From Nitrospirota bacterium (GTDB lineage: Bacteria > Nitrospirota > Nitrospiria > Nitrospirales > Nitrospiraceae), in contig JAPLLI010000038.1 of the NCBI GenBank assembly GCA_026387615.1, positions 1-43,793 on the forward strand: a DNA stretch of 43,793 nucleotides, read 5' to 3'. This document shows, piece after piece, positions 17,478-23,502 of the stretch (position 1 is the stretch's first letter; every line of letters starts with the position of its first letter). The notes beneath the pieces are model-generated. The model was not told where the DNA came from. It ran no database searches and saw nothing but the letters and a program-made list of their open reading frames with translations. A program made the position numbers and the translations under genes.

Positions 17478-18527
17478 CTAACTTCGAGTTGGCGTGGCTG
17501 TAAGGGGGATCGGAGTCCAGGTCGTGCCGGCGTCGGTCGAGCGGTAGAGACCGCTGCCGTTCGTGCCGACATAGAGGATGTGCGGGTCGCGTTGGCTCAT
17601 CGCGAGGGTGCGAATGTTCAATGAGCCTAGTCCTGTATTGATTGCGGCCCAGGTTTGTCCGCTGTCGGGGCTTTTCCAGACGCCACTCGGCCCTCCGATG
17701 TAGAGAGTCTGAGGCTCGATCGGGTCGATCAAAATACTGCTGACGAACAGATCGGGGAGCGATTGCCCGATCCGCTCCCATTGCTCTCCACGCGTGCCGG
17801 TGCGGAAGAGGCCCTTCGTGGTTCCGGCATAGACGATGTCCGGGTTGATCACATCGAAGACGATCGCATTGACCCCCAGCGCCATCCCCCCCATCAGCTC
17901 CTGCTCAGGAATCAGCCCATTGTTGATTTTTTTCCATCCCGCTGCGGCGTTGTCGGACCGGTAGATCCCTCCCGTGGTGCCTGCATAGAGGACTCGGGGA
18001 TCGCGGGGATGAATGGCGATGGAGACCACGATGTGGACCTCCTTCATCCCGGCCATCCGCTCTTCCCATTCGCGCCCTCCGTCTTTGGTATAAAAGGCGC
18101 CGACGGTCGTGGCCGCGTAGATCTGATCGTGGTCGGTCGGATGAAAGACGAATTCATTGATAAAGGAAACGTGTTCCTTGAGCCCGACGTTGTGCGGGAG
18201 CCAATGTTGCCCGCCATCCGGACTCTTGTAGACGGCATCGGCCATGGTGCCGGCATAGATCGTGGCCGGGAACTGGGGATCGATCGCGAGCGTCGTCACT
18301 CGTCTGGCGCTGAAACTGGGGAACCGCTCCCACAGTTGGCCTCCGTCGCGCGACTTGTAGACCGCATCGTTCGTCGCCACATAGAGGATGTTGGCGTTGG
18401 TCGGATGGAGGGCGATGGAGACGATCGCCTCGCTGTCCTTCTGGCAGCCGAGGTTGAAGAGGAGAAGAGCCAGCGCGGCAAATGTGGCGGCAGTGCGAAT
18501 CAGCATGACAGTCGTGGACCTAATCAT
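17478..18527 (-). CDS. BNR/YCF48-type repeat lipoprotein
   Basis: Lipobox LFNLGCQK; repeated VYKSxDGGQxWxx and IYAGTxxGxYRS motifs. Confidence 0.85.
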   Translation of the reverse strand: MIRSTTVMLIRTAATFAALALLLFNLGCQKDSEAIVSIALHPTNANILYVATNDAVYKSRDGGQLWERFPSFSARRVTTLAIDPQFPATIYAGTMADAVYKSPDGGQHWLPHNVGLKEHVSFINEFVFHPTDHDQIYAATTVGAFYTKDGGREWEERMAGMKEVHIVVSIAIHPRDPRVLYAGTTGGIYRSDNAAAGWKKINNGLIPEQELMGGMALGVNAIVFDVINPDIVYAGTTKGLFRTGTRGEQWERIGQSLPDLFVSSILIDPIEPQTLYIGGPSGVWKSPDSGQTWAAINTGLGSLNIRTLAMSQRDPHILYVGTNGSGLYRSTDAGTTWTPIPLTATPTRS

Positions 18528-18718: not shown

Positions 18719-18841
18719 AAAGGAGCGGCCCGGCCAATCTCCCGTGCTCGCGCACCCCGCACGCAAGATTGATCGAAGTGTCAGATTAAGGGCGGTGCTC
18801 GGTGCATGCGCGCAATGGGAGATCGACCAGGCCACTCCTTT
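18719..18841 (+). repeat. Family A repeat, subtype A', copy A4 (left boundary of the TIR island)
   Basis: Arms AAAGGAGCGGCCCGGCCAATCTCCC / GGGAGATCGACCAGGCCACTCCTTT; core GTGCTCGCGC..GCACGCAAGA...GGTGCTCGGTGCATGCGCGCAATGGG. Confidence 0.8.
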
Positions 18842-18998
18842 CAGTCTGTCTGGGCAAGAGAGGTTTGACATCGGCTCGCAAAGGATGAATATTGGGGCGA
18901 AGTTCGACGAAGGGGCTACGAGTTTACGGGGGGATATTCCGTAAGTTTCGTTAGCTGGTCCAGCAGTCCTTGATGCGATAAATAGGGGTTCATCATCT

Positions 18999-20246
18999 GT
19001 GTATAGTCTGCTGGTGTCTCAGCAAGTTGAGGATCGGGCCGATGGGACTTTCGAGGTTTCTAAGGATCGTTTCCTTGAGTTCACGAGTGAAGCGACTGCA
19101 GCCCAGTTACGGCCTCTTTCAGTGGAGTCGATTGACTGTATCAAGTCGTGGCCATGCGTCTATATGCAGGAGGGGCGGGGCGAAGAGCGGGCCTATGTGG
19201 GACGGATCACTGCAGTTCACGACGCAGGTGGAGACATCAAGCTTACGATCGTGTCCTTGCCAATGGAACCACCGATTCTCAATGACGATCTATGGAGAAT
19301 CCGTACGGAGCTCGACGTCGAACAATTCGAGTTCAGCCGTAATCACTGGGCTATAAAAGATAAGGACCTCTTTCACATACTTCGCGATGCGGGCCACGAG
19401 TTTAATCCCTCTGTAGTAGCTCTATTCGAGGGCAAGTCACTGCCAGCGCCGTCCCGGCCAGATCTGATCCGCGCACGGAACGTCATATCGGAATGGAGCC
19501 ACACCAAGATCGACGATTTTCTGCTTGAGGCCGGAGTGGATGGCTTGGTCGCTGCGCGCGCCATCGGCGGTCGACGAGATCGAGCCAATGCAATTGTTGA
19601 GTTCGCGCTCGCACACCCATCCGCCACCACCGCAGAGAACTCCCTACTCTCTGTCTTCATTGTGCGGGCAGCCGGGCCGACAACTCAGTATGATTCGGAC
19701 GCGAAGAGCCAACTTAGCGTCGCGCCTGAAGGTGAAGCTCAGACGCCTCAGAGACGAGCGGAAGCAGGAACTCCCAGCCGTTCGCCGAATCGAGTTTTCG
19801 TCGTGCACGGCCAGAACGACACTGCCAGGTCGGCCGTTCTGTTGTTTCTTTCGAAGGTTGGTTTGATTGGGATAGTTCTACATGAGCAACCAAATATGGG
19901 GCGCCACCTATTGACCAAATTCATTGAGGAGGCGGAGCTTGTAACTTTTGCAATCGTTCTGATGACCGACGATGACATGGGTAGCTTGAAGGGCCACAAG
20001 TTAGCGCCACGTGCCCGCCAGAATGTCATTCTTGAGCTAGGATATTTTATCTCTCACCTCGGCCAGGAGCGGGTTTGTGCCCTGATTACTCCGGGTCTCG
20101 AGACCCCGTCAGATTTCGACGGGATCGTGTATATCCGAATGGATGCCGATGCTCGATGGGAAACGGAGCTACGGCGTGAACTGTTGGCGGCGGGCATGCC
20201 TTTGATAGAGAAGTGGAAGAGGCATATAGACTCAACCCCGGGCTAG
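18999..20246 (+). CDS. TIR-like (CAP12/Pycsar effector type) domain protein with two N-terminal domains
   Basis: C-terminal RVFVVHGQNDTARSAVLLFLSKVGL...NMGRHLLTKFIEEAELVTFAIVLMTDDDMG...LAPRARQNVILELGYFISHLGQERVCALITPGLETPSDFDGIVYIRMD matches the pattern of predicted nucleotide-binding TIR-like proteins; GTG start. Confidence 0.85.
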   Translation: MYSLLVSQQVEDRADGTFEVSKDRFLEFTSEATAAQLRPLSVESIDCIKSWPCVYMQEGRGEERAYVGRITAVHDAGGDIKLTIVSLPMEPPILNDDLWRIRTELDVEQFEFSRNHWAIKDKDLFHILRDAGHEFNPSVVALFEGKSLPAPSRPDLIRARNVISEWSHTKIDDFLLEAGVDGLVAARAIGGRRDRANAIVEFALAHPSATTAENSLLSVFIVRAAGPTTQYDSDAKSQLSVAPEGEAQTPQRRAEAGTPSRSPNRVFVVHGQNDTARSAVLLFLSKVGLIGIVLHEQPNMGRHLLTKFIEEAELVTFAIVLMTDDDMGSLKGHKLAPRARQNVILELGYFISHLGQERVCALITPGLETPSDFDGIVYIRMDADARWETELRRELLAAGMPLIEKWKRHIDSTPG

Positions 20247-20292
20247 CTCAGTCAGGCCCCCTTATATTTTCCAGCAGTTCATTTAGTGGTTT

Positions 20293-21285
20293 ATGCCCCA
20301 CGAAGAAATGTCATCGATCCCGTCCCTTTATAGCTTGGGGCCACTCCCGTGGAGCGACGAGGTCCTGGTCGCCGCAGCCTGGAAGAGCTTCGAGGATGCA
20401 CGGCGTTTGGTTAATGAACATCCAGGCCGAGACCTTGCCGAGCGTTCTTTATCGCTTAAGTCGGTACTCCATATATTTGAGGGTGCAGCTGAATCGTTCG
20501 ACGAACTCCTCGTACGCTTTCATGCAGAAGCGCATGGCAGCCACCTTTTCCGCAGGAATCGGCGTAGCGACCTCGATGCTTTTGAGGTAAAGCTCCAGGA
20601 GCGGCTCTACCTCTTTGCCTCCAGTGCCATGACACTTGTAGATCAGGCTCGTGCACTTCGCAAGAAAGTCGAGCTATCAGGGTATGAGGAGCGCGTTAGC
20701 TCATCGTTCGCGAAGAATCCTCGCCACCGATTTATCCAAGACCTTCGCAACGATTTAATCCATGTGACCCTTCATCAGCCAAGCTGGCAGCTCACCTCGG
20801 GTCGAAATGAAGAGCCAACTTCTAAGTTCATGCTGTGGCCGGATCAGCTGACTCGATCCAATGAGTACACCGCACTTGCTAGAGCCTATGTTCGCGACCA
20901 TCCCAAAGGCATTGACCTCGGCGTCCTCATTGACGAGTACGTCCGCGACGTAACAGAATTTCACGAGTGGTTGAACGACGCGCTTAATAACTCAGCGGGA
21001 TCGCTAGTCGCAGACTATAGGCGCTGTTCAAATCGGATCAACGCGGTCAGTTCCTGCTCTTGGTGGAACATCATCTTTCGGCAGGTGGTCCTGGCTGGTA
21101 AACGAGATCCCTATCAGTATCTCGATCAGTACCTAACACCACAGGAGTTGGTCGATGTGAATTCGCTTCCCGGCAGGAGCAAGGCTCAGATCGATCGAAT
21201 AATTGAGCTTGTTGACGAGTTCGGCGCATGTGATCTCGAACTTCGAGCCCTCATCTATAAGGCGTTTGGTGCCAGTGACGACTAA
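20293..21285 (+). CDS. Uncharacterised helical protein with candidate HEPN-type RX4H motif
   Basis: FIQDLRNDLIHVTLHQPSW; R152-N-D-L-I-H157 fits the HEPN R(N/D/H)X3H signature; 46 bp after the TIR gene on the same strand. Confidence 0.55.
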   Translation: MPHEEMSSIPSLYSLGPLPWSDEVLVAAAWKSFEDARRLVNEHPGRDLAERSLSLKSVLHIFEGAAESFDELLVRFHAEAHGSHLFRRNRRSDLDAFEVKLQERLYLFASSAMTLVDQARALRKKVELSGYEERVSSSFAKNPRHRFIQDLRNDLIHVTLHQPSWQLTSGRNEEPTSKFMLWPDQLTRSNEYTALARAYVRDHPKGIDLGVLIDEYVRDVTEFHEWLNDALNNSAGSLVADYRRCSNRINAVSSCSWWNIIFRQVVLAGKRDPYQYLDQYLTPQELVDVNSLPGRSKAQIDRIIELVDEFGACDLELRALIYKAFGASDD

Positions 21286-21400
21286 CCTCCCTATTGAGAG
21301 GACGTGCTTTGGTCGGCAAATGCATGCCTCTCATGTCAAGCGTCAGCTAGCAGAGCGACATAATCGAAGGGTGGCAGCGTTTGTTCCTTCCTTCTTTTAG

Positions 21401-21521
21401 GGAATGGGGTCTGATTGATCTCCCACTGCGCGCATGCGATGAGCACCGACCATAGTGTCAAAGTGCAATAGGTCTTGCGTGCGCGTCGCGCGAGCACAGG
21501 AGATTAATCAGACCCCGTTCC
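21401..21521 (-). repeat. Family A repeat, subtype A', copy A5 (inverted relative to A4)
   Basis: Arms GGAATGGGGTCTGATTGATCTCC / GGAGATTAATCAGACCCCGTTCC; reverse complement of core shares GCACGCAAGA and GGTGCTC..GCATGCGCGCAGTGGGAGATC with A4. Confidence 0.8.
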
Positions 21522-21527
21522 TCTGAA

Positions 21528-21611
21528 CTGTCGGTCAGTGGGAATTGGCGGATCACATTTCGGTTTGTCGGCAAGGACGCAGAGGTTGTCGATTACGAGG
21601 ATTATCACTGA
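21528..21611 (+). pseudogene. higB: C-terminal remnant of a HigB (RelE-superfamily) toxin
   Basis: In-frame LSVSGNWRITFRFVGKDAEVVDYEDYH*, typical of HigB C-termini (SGNWRxxFRF...DVxYxDYH); no start codon, the sequence upstream is repeat A5. Confidence 0.75.
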
Positions 21612-21623
21612 CGAGGTCGTTCC

Positions 21624-21908
21624 ATGCGCATGCACAATCCCCCGCACCCAGGGACCATCATCAAGCATTTGTGTTTAGATCCGCTCGGCTTGAGTGTCAC
21701 TCAGGCTGCTCAAGGATTGGGAATCAGCCGGAAACCCCTCTCTGCCATTTTGAACGGCCGAGCAGGGCTGAGTCCCGAGATGGCGGTTCGCCTGTCGATG
21801 GCGTTCGGCACGTCGTCCGAGAGCTGGCTGAGTCAGCAAAGCCAGTATGACTTGTGGCACGCGGAGCAGCGCCGCAAAGAGCTTCGTGTCACCAAGCTTG
21901 CGGTGTAG
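21624..21908 (+). CDS. higA: HigA-family antitoxin (HTH_XRE)
   Basis: [78 protein letters not shown]. Confidence 0.93.
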
Positions 21909-22200: not shown

Positions 22201-23334
22201 CTACAGCTTCTTCGCGAATCGTTCCGCGTAGCCCGTTAACTCCATGTACCCCTGGCCCTTGATCGGCTTCCCCTGCGCGGTGCCGGTGGCCTCGATGGCC
22301 CCCTCCCAATAGGTCACTTGCGTGCTGCGCGTCGTGGAGAGTTCCTGCTCTGCCATTCTGGGAACAAGTTCTAGCGCGAGTTGTTGCGAGGGAATGGTCA
22401 GGCGCCAACGTTGCGGGTATCGGGCCTGGCTCGTGGGACTGGTCCAATAACTGGTTGGCTCCAGCGTGAAGTCTCCAATCGAAAGGTGGTGCCCCTGTCC
22501 CTCCCGGTCGATGAGGGTCCCGCTGGAGACAGGATCGGCCGATCCATCGGCTCGGCGGAGGCGATAGAGCATCAATTCCCTCTGGTCGTCGAGTTGTAGG
22601 CTGAACCAGTCCCAGCCGACCAGGTTCTTGTCGAGATCGGCCGAGCCGAACTCATGGTCCATCCAGCTCGTACCGGTCACGTCGAACGATTCGTTCCCGA
22701 TCGTGAGTTGGCCGGTCGTGGCCAGTCTGGTGAAGGAATAGTAATGGGAGGCCTGGCCAGCAGCAGAGCCTTTGCGGCTGATGCCGCCGCGGCCATGCAG
22801 GATGAGCGGTTTCTCAGGCGCGAGGGTGAGTTGAAGGGCCAGGTCCCCATCCGCAGCCCGGAGGGTCTGGGTGCCTGGCGTGGCAGCCGGCGATTCGGCG
22901 CTCCATTGATCGACCCAGACGTGGAGGCGATCATGATCCGCACCGGCCTTACCTAAACCGGCCCTGCTGATTTTCTCTGCATAGTGAAAACGGCCATGGT
23001 TGAGATCGCTCATGGCGAAATGGGCCAGGTAGAGTTGTGTGACGGCCCACTGGGACGGGAGGGTTTTCACATGCGCGCGCGGCAGGCCACGGCGGAAAAA
23101 GGTGAGTTGATAGCCGAAGGGCCGACCGTCCTTCGCCGTGAGTTGGCCCGTGTAGTACCACCACTCCGTGCGAAATGCCTCGTGCGCTCCGTGGTCGCGC
23201 GGAAAGGAATAGCGATAGCCCTCTGTGGCGACGCGGAATTCCGGTGCGAGATCTTCCGCGAGGCCCGGCACGACCAGCAGCAGGCTGCCAGCCAGCAGCA
23301 GGAGGGATCGAAGATGACGCCGCAATTCGTACAT
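22201..23334 (-). CDS. Exported lipocalin-like / AttH-CrtC (hydroxyneurosporene synthase-like) protein
   Basis: Signal peptide; FPRDHGAHEAFRTEWWYYTGQLTAKDGRPFGYQLTFFRRG, DVTGTSWMDHEFGSADLDKNLVGWDWFSLQLDDQRELMLYRLRR. Confidence 0.9.
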   Translation of the reverse strand: MYELRRHLRSLLLLAGSLLLVVPGLAEDLAPEFRVATEGYRYSFPRDHGAHEAFRTEWWYYTGQLTAKDGRPFGYQLTFFRRGLPRAHVKTLPSQWAVTQLYLAHFAMSDLNHGRFHYAEKISRAGLGKAGADHDRLHVWVDQWSAESPAATPGTQTLRAADGDLALQLTLAPEKPLILHGRGGISRKGSAAGQASHYYSFTRLATTGQLTIGNESFDVTGTSWMDHEFGSADLDKNLVGWDWFSLQLDDQRELMLYRLRRADGSADPVSSGTLIDREGQGHHLSIGDFTLEPTSYWTSPTSQARYPQRWRLTIPSQQLALELVPRMAEQELSTTRSTQVTYWEGAIEATGTAQGKPIKGQGYMELTGYAERFAKKL

Positions 23335-23502
23335 GCGTGATGACCCGTCCGTGCCGCAATGGAATCGTCGTTCGCGCTTATAACATGCTTCGGGCGGTGG
23401 TACAAATCTCCTGTATTGATAAGGGTTTTCGTGAAGTTTACAGAAGGAAAATAGCCCGCGCTCGCCGTTGACAATTTTGCCGACCATCAGCTATCGTGAG
23501 TG

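Follow-up and report, generated by a model that had tools for sequence, protein, structure and literature searches.

A mobile two-gene islet found in a nitrifier-type bacterium of the Nitrospirota encodes a CAP12/STING-type TIR protein, which begins with a separate mobile module, and a 330-residue protein that likely belongs to the HEPN superfamily. The islet lies in the window, i.e., the whole stretch of 43,793 nucleotides analyzed here, which comes from a draft assembly of 281 contigs. It is best explained, in our opinion, as an abortive-infection islet with two parallel, loosely coupled effectors, neither of which is an obligate partner of the other, a reading that we hold tentatively, at a little under an even chance. 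The explanation builds on the identity of the TIR domain, the conservation of the motifs, the insertion of the islet and the transfer of its two genes together.

Both open reading frames are on the forward strand: the TIR gene occupies positions 18999-20246 (415 aa, GTG start) and the gene of the putative HEPN RNase positions 20293-21285 (330 aa). The 46 bp between them, the shared strand and all of the quoted peptides are as given in an earlier, sequence-only reading of this DNA. A sigma-70-like promoter match (TTGACA-17-AATATT, 18865-18893, forward strand) precedes the TIR gene, and no terminator-like site is seen between the two genes; both results are weak evidence from sequence scans, the promoter scan having returned 4 consensus matches versus 2.0 expected. 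The genes are probably co-transcribed and inherited together. On one side the pair is bordered by a BNR-repeat gene, and on the other, beyond the HEPN gene, by a HigA-type antitoxin gene (21624-21908) and a CrtC-like gene. No HigB toxin gene was recognized next to HigA, which is also present at this site in congener G077 and absent in congener G085. Among the genes neighboring the pair, no nucleotide cyclase or CD-NTase was recognized, in agreement with the earlier statement that a cyclase is not adjacent, and no MNT nucleotidyltransferase gene was seen adjoining the pair.

The insertion site is delimited by the BNR-repeat gene (17478-18527) and the CrtC-like gene (22201-23487). In six congeners (G315, G296, G310, G153, G314 and G161) the site is empty, the two flanking genes being at most a few hundred bases apart, and other cargo is found there in G077 (HigA and a 180-aa ORF), G197, G135, G298, G309, G214 and G301. 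Among the 14 sites read, only those of the window genome and G085 contain the TIR-HEPN pair. The cargo of G301 (L133:8033-8872) includes an FRG-domain gene (4.7e-25), and for this reason the site may repeatedly take defence-like cargo. REP-like palindromic elements lie on both flanks of the islet, at 18736-18833 (reverse strand, 77% to the right copy) and at 21395-21530 (forward strand, also found at the site in G085 and G077). An integron attC reading of these palindromes was dropped, since the element is repetitive, with 19 matches across the genome. In G077 (L122), the same pair of elements flanks the different, 180-aa ORF, as if cargo had been exchanged between the palindromes.

Comparison of the window with G085 gives identities of 89-97% over positions 18841-19240, 64-84% over 19241-20040 and 90-99% over 20241-21440, with 80-85% in the flanking genes. 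The dS values are 0.10 for the HEPN gene, 0.19 for the first 82 TIR codons, 0.5-1.5 for the rest of the TIR gene and 0.53-0.82 for the flanking genes. Because dS in the HEPN gene and at the start of the TIR gene is far below that of the flanks, the cassette appears to have passed between the two lineages as a unit. The pairing proposed from the sequence is supported to this extent, that the two genes moved together as one islet in two Nitrospirota congeners. The TIR gene itself appears to be a mosaic, the interior of which was probably replaced by recombination in one of the two lineages. In G085, one base pair is missing close to the 3' end of the HEPN frame, which costs the protein its conserved last ~32 residues; this is either a sequencing error or decay.

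The C-terminal part of the first protein (residues 265-400; 19791-20198, forward strand) is a TIR domain of the CAP12/STING type, as the earlier assignment to a CAP12/Pycsar type had indicated. Pfam PF10137 matches residues 265-382 with E = 1.1e-31 (109.7 bits vs a gathering score of 24.7), and the PADLOC model PDC-S35 matches residues 249-402 with E = 4.9e-55. The nearest solved structures by sequence are those of Cap12/TIR-STING (7un8, 9lmq), and a Foldseek search with the AF2 model of the protein returned the same class (9lmr, E = 4.8e-5). Glu346, in NVILELGYF, is aligned with the Glu of Cap12 NVVFEFGLF. The conserved NVxxE Glu has a catalytic role in the Cap12 TIR family, and the domain would presumably hydrolyze NAD+ through Glu346. 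Strong constraint on the TIR domain is evident from a dN/dS of 0.06 between the window and G085; residues 136-262, at 0.44, are under much weaker constraint. This fast-evolving part includes a middle region of five predicted helices (residues 153-225; 19455-19673, forward strand), which AF2 models with moderate to low confidence and which has no Pfam match. An EAD/death-like identity, to which the helical pattern alone pointed, is not claimed for these helices. Searches with single-sequence patterns yielded no viral relatives of the whole TIR protein.

Residues 1-133 of the TIR protein (18999-19397, forward strand) constitute a separate mobile module that was overlooked in the sequence-only reading; it is defined by a 41-module alignment, homologues on mobile elements, a census of fusions and the AF2 model. 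The first clue was a weak match in G009, a genome from the same family as the window genome, where only residues 2-132 aligned and the C-terminus of the protein was an FRG domain. As a query, residues 1-133 returned 70 plasmid records, 51 of them from Escherichia and 51 of the 70 conjugative, together with 7 phage records, the P2-like Peduovirus P22H1 among them; the module alignment returned 39 IMG/VR loci. Residues R24, P52, E58, R114, H116, W117 and K120 are invariant in the 41 copies, which share, with few exceptions, the signature R-[TNS]-H-W-[AS]-x-K. The region has no Pfam model and no convincing sequence match in the PDB. AF2 predicts a mixed alpha/beta domain, with pLDDT mostly 92-97. 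Foldseek of the TIR protein model returned a YTH domain (E 0.013) along with a weak match to a Lon N-terminal domain; the YTH match led to an hhalign comparison with EVE, the probability of which was below 1%, and an EVE/YTH/PUA-like origin of the module is therefore not claimed.

The domains to which the module is joined are diverse. In 32 full-length module proteins, the partners are TIR_2 (9), nucleoside-deoxyribosyltransferase-like (9), FRG (6), CAP12-TIR (4) and SEFIR (2) domains, it being noted that these classes overlap and that the deoxyribosyltransferase-like class is weak in Pfam; a PADLOC TIR-effector model matches 11 members. FRG belongs to the ART superfamily and has been proposed to be an NADase (PMC9503650). 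Judging from these assignments, the module seems to be joined mostly to enzymes with a known or suspected action on NAD+. Other arrangements were also seen. In phages of Streptococcus (L050:2805-6879) and Lachnospiraceae (L051:1692-5749), the module lies within a protein of its own, upstream of which a conserved partner (RLCGGTFF...) is encoded, and the module gene is followed in L050 by an ACNase gene annotated as RloC and in L051 by a 43% homologue of that ACNase. Module versions of Firmicutes phages (L073, L074, L076, L077 and L051) have an N/Q/G-rich N-terminal stretch of the QTGDxNTQIAHA type, which looks like an amyloid-type signaling motif. A Sinorhizobium module protein of 589 aa (L049:4001-5770) has no clear TIR or FRG part and carries RDGIIH at its C-terminus; by this motif, it may be a module-HEPN fusion.

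The architecture of the TIR protein differs from that of the known systems it resembles. PDC-S35, a computed candidate family of single-gene TIR defence, has the same CAP12-type TIR, residues 249-402 here corresponding to positions 104-257 of its 264-position model; model positions 1-103, however, are unmatched, and the 133-aa module and the helical region stand in their place. Cap12/TIR-STING of CBASS provides the nearest TIR structures by sequence and fold and shares the NVxxE Glu, but its TIR is N-terminal whereas that of the window protein is C-terminal, and no CD-NTase neighbor was recognized here. The NCBIfam Cap12 models score ~37 bits against a cut-off of 450, with only the TIR part aligned, and no STING domain was found in the protein. 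The TIR part of Pycsar PycTIR matches weakly (3.8e-10), but the window protein has a different N-terminal region and no adjacent cyclase was recognized. Membership in CBASS or Pycsar was rejected, there being neither a STING domain nor a cyclase recognized among the neighboring genes. The PDC-S15/FRG-domain proteins of P2-like prophages and plasmids share the N-terminal module; unlike the window protein, they have FRG, of the ART superfamily, in place of TIR, and they are encoded by single genes.

The 330-aa protein has no family match in Pfam, PADLOC, NCBIfam or PDB sequences. It contains RNDLIH (R152, N153 and H157; 20746-20763, forward strand), which was taken in the sequence-only reading for a HEPN signature. 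On its own this motif is weak evidence, because R[ND]x3H occurs in 10% of composition-preserving shuffles; it is also present in 2 of 30 other window genes. It gains meaning from its conservation throughout the family. R152 and H157 are invariant in all ten aligned members (32-93% identity to the window protein), with N at residue 153 in nine and D in one, and also in nine of nine diverse homologues. Two remote homologues at 22% identity, from Vibrio and Micromonospora plasmids, retain R-[N/S]-x3-H, and with these two added, the only invariant residues are R120, F147, L151, R152, H157, L186 and W226; R120, R152 and H157 are thus the only invariant charged or histidine columns.

The AF2 model (pLDDT 81) is mostly helical, with helices at residues 44-81, 88-123, (131-140), 143-156 and 209-255, and the R152-H157 motif is at the end of the third main helix (143-156). 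HEPN proteins have a conserved Rx4-6H motif in a helical bundle, likewise at the end of helix-3 or where the loop to helix 4 begins, and the polar residue that follows R is usually N, D or H (PMC3710099). In these respects the model resembles the superfamily (Anantharaman et al. 2013, PMC3710099); a further helix separates its helices 2 and 3. Foldseek against the PDB returned nothing significant for this model, and the single Pfam HEPN match was weak (PF18736, E 0.06) and confined to one homologue; the HEPN fold was not confirmed by these searches. The invariance of the motif and its position in the model do support a HEPN-type active site, as the earlier reading proposed. No named HEPN family of Pfam, NCBIfam or PADLOC was matched, and two conserved helical regions, one N-terminal (LGPLPW) and one C-terminal, are particular to this family. 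Taken together, we consider it likely that the protein is a HEPN, and the conserved motif and the model suggest that it may act as an RNase of the metal-independent HEPN kind.

Homologues of the 330-aa protein were found in Nitrospirota (G085, 93%; G145, 36%; G116; G067) and, beyond this phylum, in Nitrosospira (49%), Humidesulfovibrio, Omnitrophota and an archaeal MAG; none was found in IMG/VR or in phage records. The G145 homologue (L003/L169) is a fusion of 578 aa, whose residues 1-255, with no Pfam match, contain a second HEPN-like motif, NFRDALAH, so that it is possibly a double-HEPN protein. HEPN-like stretches (R-[ND] ... H) were also seen in the genes upstream of the homologues in L008 (6723-7820) and L010 (1376-2248), with the motifs RDILCH and EFRNYIHP, respectively; the L010 one weakly resembles DUF4145 (E 0.11). 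In L009 (1638-2165), a Zeta-toxin-like gene starts 16 bp past the HEPN homologue.

The candidate two-gene system of the sequence-only reading is not supported as a conserved one. A TIR gene was found near a HEPN homologue in only one of about ten other loci, where it is of a different class and two genes away, and a profile search found no TIR ORF near the homologues of L007-L013 and of two plasmids in the DNA examined. Conversely, no HEPN homologue accompanies the N-terminal module at any of about 50 other loci. HEPN homologues do, then, occur beside TIR-like genes, yet the pairing is rare; since they usually have no TIR neighbor, the pair is local rather than a conserved system. Only in a single cassette, present in two congeners, is this HEPN family paired with a CAP12-type TIR.

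These counts bear most directly on the main rival explanation, in which the islet would hold two separate genes for defence or toxicity, one encoding a sensor-TIR and the other a HEPN RNase, each acting alone; they would share an insertion site and have no functional link. On plasmids, a module-TIR protein is mostly the product of a single gene, module-TIR genes of plasmids and viruses occur without a HEPN homologue, and the two families were found together at no examined locus besides the islet. The acceptance of unrelated cargo (HigA, the 180-aa ORF, FRG) by the same site and the recombination inside the TIR gene, but not the HEPN gene, agree with such independence. Against it stand the common strand, the 46-bp spacing with no terminator-like site, and the co-transfer of the genes as a unit. 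Moreover, two further arrangements in Nitrospirota, PDC-S35 TIR-MNT(-HepT) and HEPN-GGDEF-TIR_2, also bring TIR and HEPN genes together, a recurrence that supports the explanation of the islet as a two-effector unit. Weighing both sides, we give independence an appreciable probability, clearly below even.

The first of these arrangements was observed at five loci (L162-L166) of another Nitrospirota family (f2), where an MNT gene comes immediately after a PDC-S35 TIR gene and, at L162, L164 and L165, a HepT-like HEPN gene then follows; because the loci are close relatives, they may represent a single event. Farther on, L163 and L166 have AAA_15/AAA_21 (AbiEii-like) genes. As in the islet, a CAP12-type TIR gene is accompanied by a gene for a HEPN RNase, here within a toxin-antitoxin-type module that directly follows the TIR gene; unlike in the islet, the HEPN is a HepT, unrelated in sequence to the 330-aa protein and paired with an MNT antitoxin, and the TIR protein is without the N-terminal module. 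The window pair also differs from HEPN/MNT toxin-antitoxin systems in that it has no adjacent MNT and that the 330-aa protein has no HepT match.

The second arrangement is that of G145 (L169:3875-7943), in which the 578-aa fusion, a GGDEF gene and a TIR_2 gene follow one another on the same strand beside a phage integrase. The GGDEF protein has a match to the Cas10 palm domain as well (5e-7), and the run is possibly a nucleotide-signaling defence operon. It lends some color to a signal-coupled pair, in which an ADP-ribose-type nucleotide made by the TIR would activate the HEPN RNase, according to the logic of Thoeris with an RNase as the effector. Some TIRs produce cyclic ADPR signals, and the HEPN RNases of CRISPR ancillary proteins are nucleotide-gated. 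However, the TIR of the islet is of the CAP12/STING class, known for NADase activity rather than for signal production, Pfam, PADLOC and NCBIfam gave no ligand domain of the CARF, SLOG or SAVED-like kind in the 330-aa protein, and HEPN homologues usually have no TIR nearby. In Thoeris, the TIR (ThsB) has a ThsA partner (SIR2/SLOG or TM), whereas the partner here has no match in these three collections. We therefore regard signal coupling as improbable. Very improbable is a toxin held in check through binding by its regulator, a role that would most likely fall to the 330-aa protein, provided that its motif is noncatalytic. Close spacing and co-transfer would suit such a pair, as would the rapid evolution of the middle region in the TIR protein (dN/dS 0.44), which could be an interaction surface. 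Throughout the family, however, R152 and H157 never vary, as would be expected of catalytic residues, and neither protein needs the other as an antitoxin because both families occur alone.

In the preferred explanation of two loosely coupled effectors, the TIR protein would be a self-contained sensor-effector. Its N-terminal module may detect or relay infection, the helical middle region may assemble or gate the protein, and the C-terminal TIR domain would then oligomerize and cleave NAD+. The second protein, as a HEPN-type endoribonuclease cutting cellular or phage RNA, would be the second effector of the islet, which would probably serve to stop the spread of phage.

The TIR and HEPN classes are already known; as far as our tools reach, three things are new variants within them: the family of the HEPN protein, its pairing with the TIR protein, and the architecture that joins module and TIR with an added helical region. 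The N-terminal module with its several effectors is, in our opinion, the most interesting part, and it may have been described before, the literature covered being that of open papers. Phage defence systems are generally seen as free combinations of sensors with effectors. The module may be a common infection-sensing or gating unit that phages and plasmids attach to NAD+-cleaving effectors of different structure (CAP12-TIR, TIR_2/SEFIR, FRG/ART, deoxyribosyltransferase-like), coupled in this islet to a HEPN RNase of an unnamed family for a combined shutdown of NAD+ and RNA; we offer this suggestion as speculative and somewhat unlikely. One small module placed before several predicted NAD+-cleaving classes, on conjugative plasmids and in prophages, would provide a handle on the activation of single-gene TIR, SEFIR and FRG effectors. 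In the window, the module-TIR protein travels with a HEPN-type RNase, which makes NAD+ depletion and RNA cleavage testable together in one islet.
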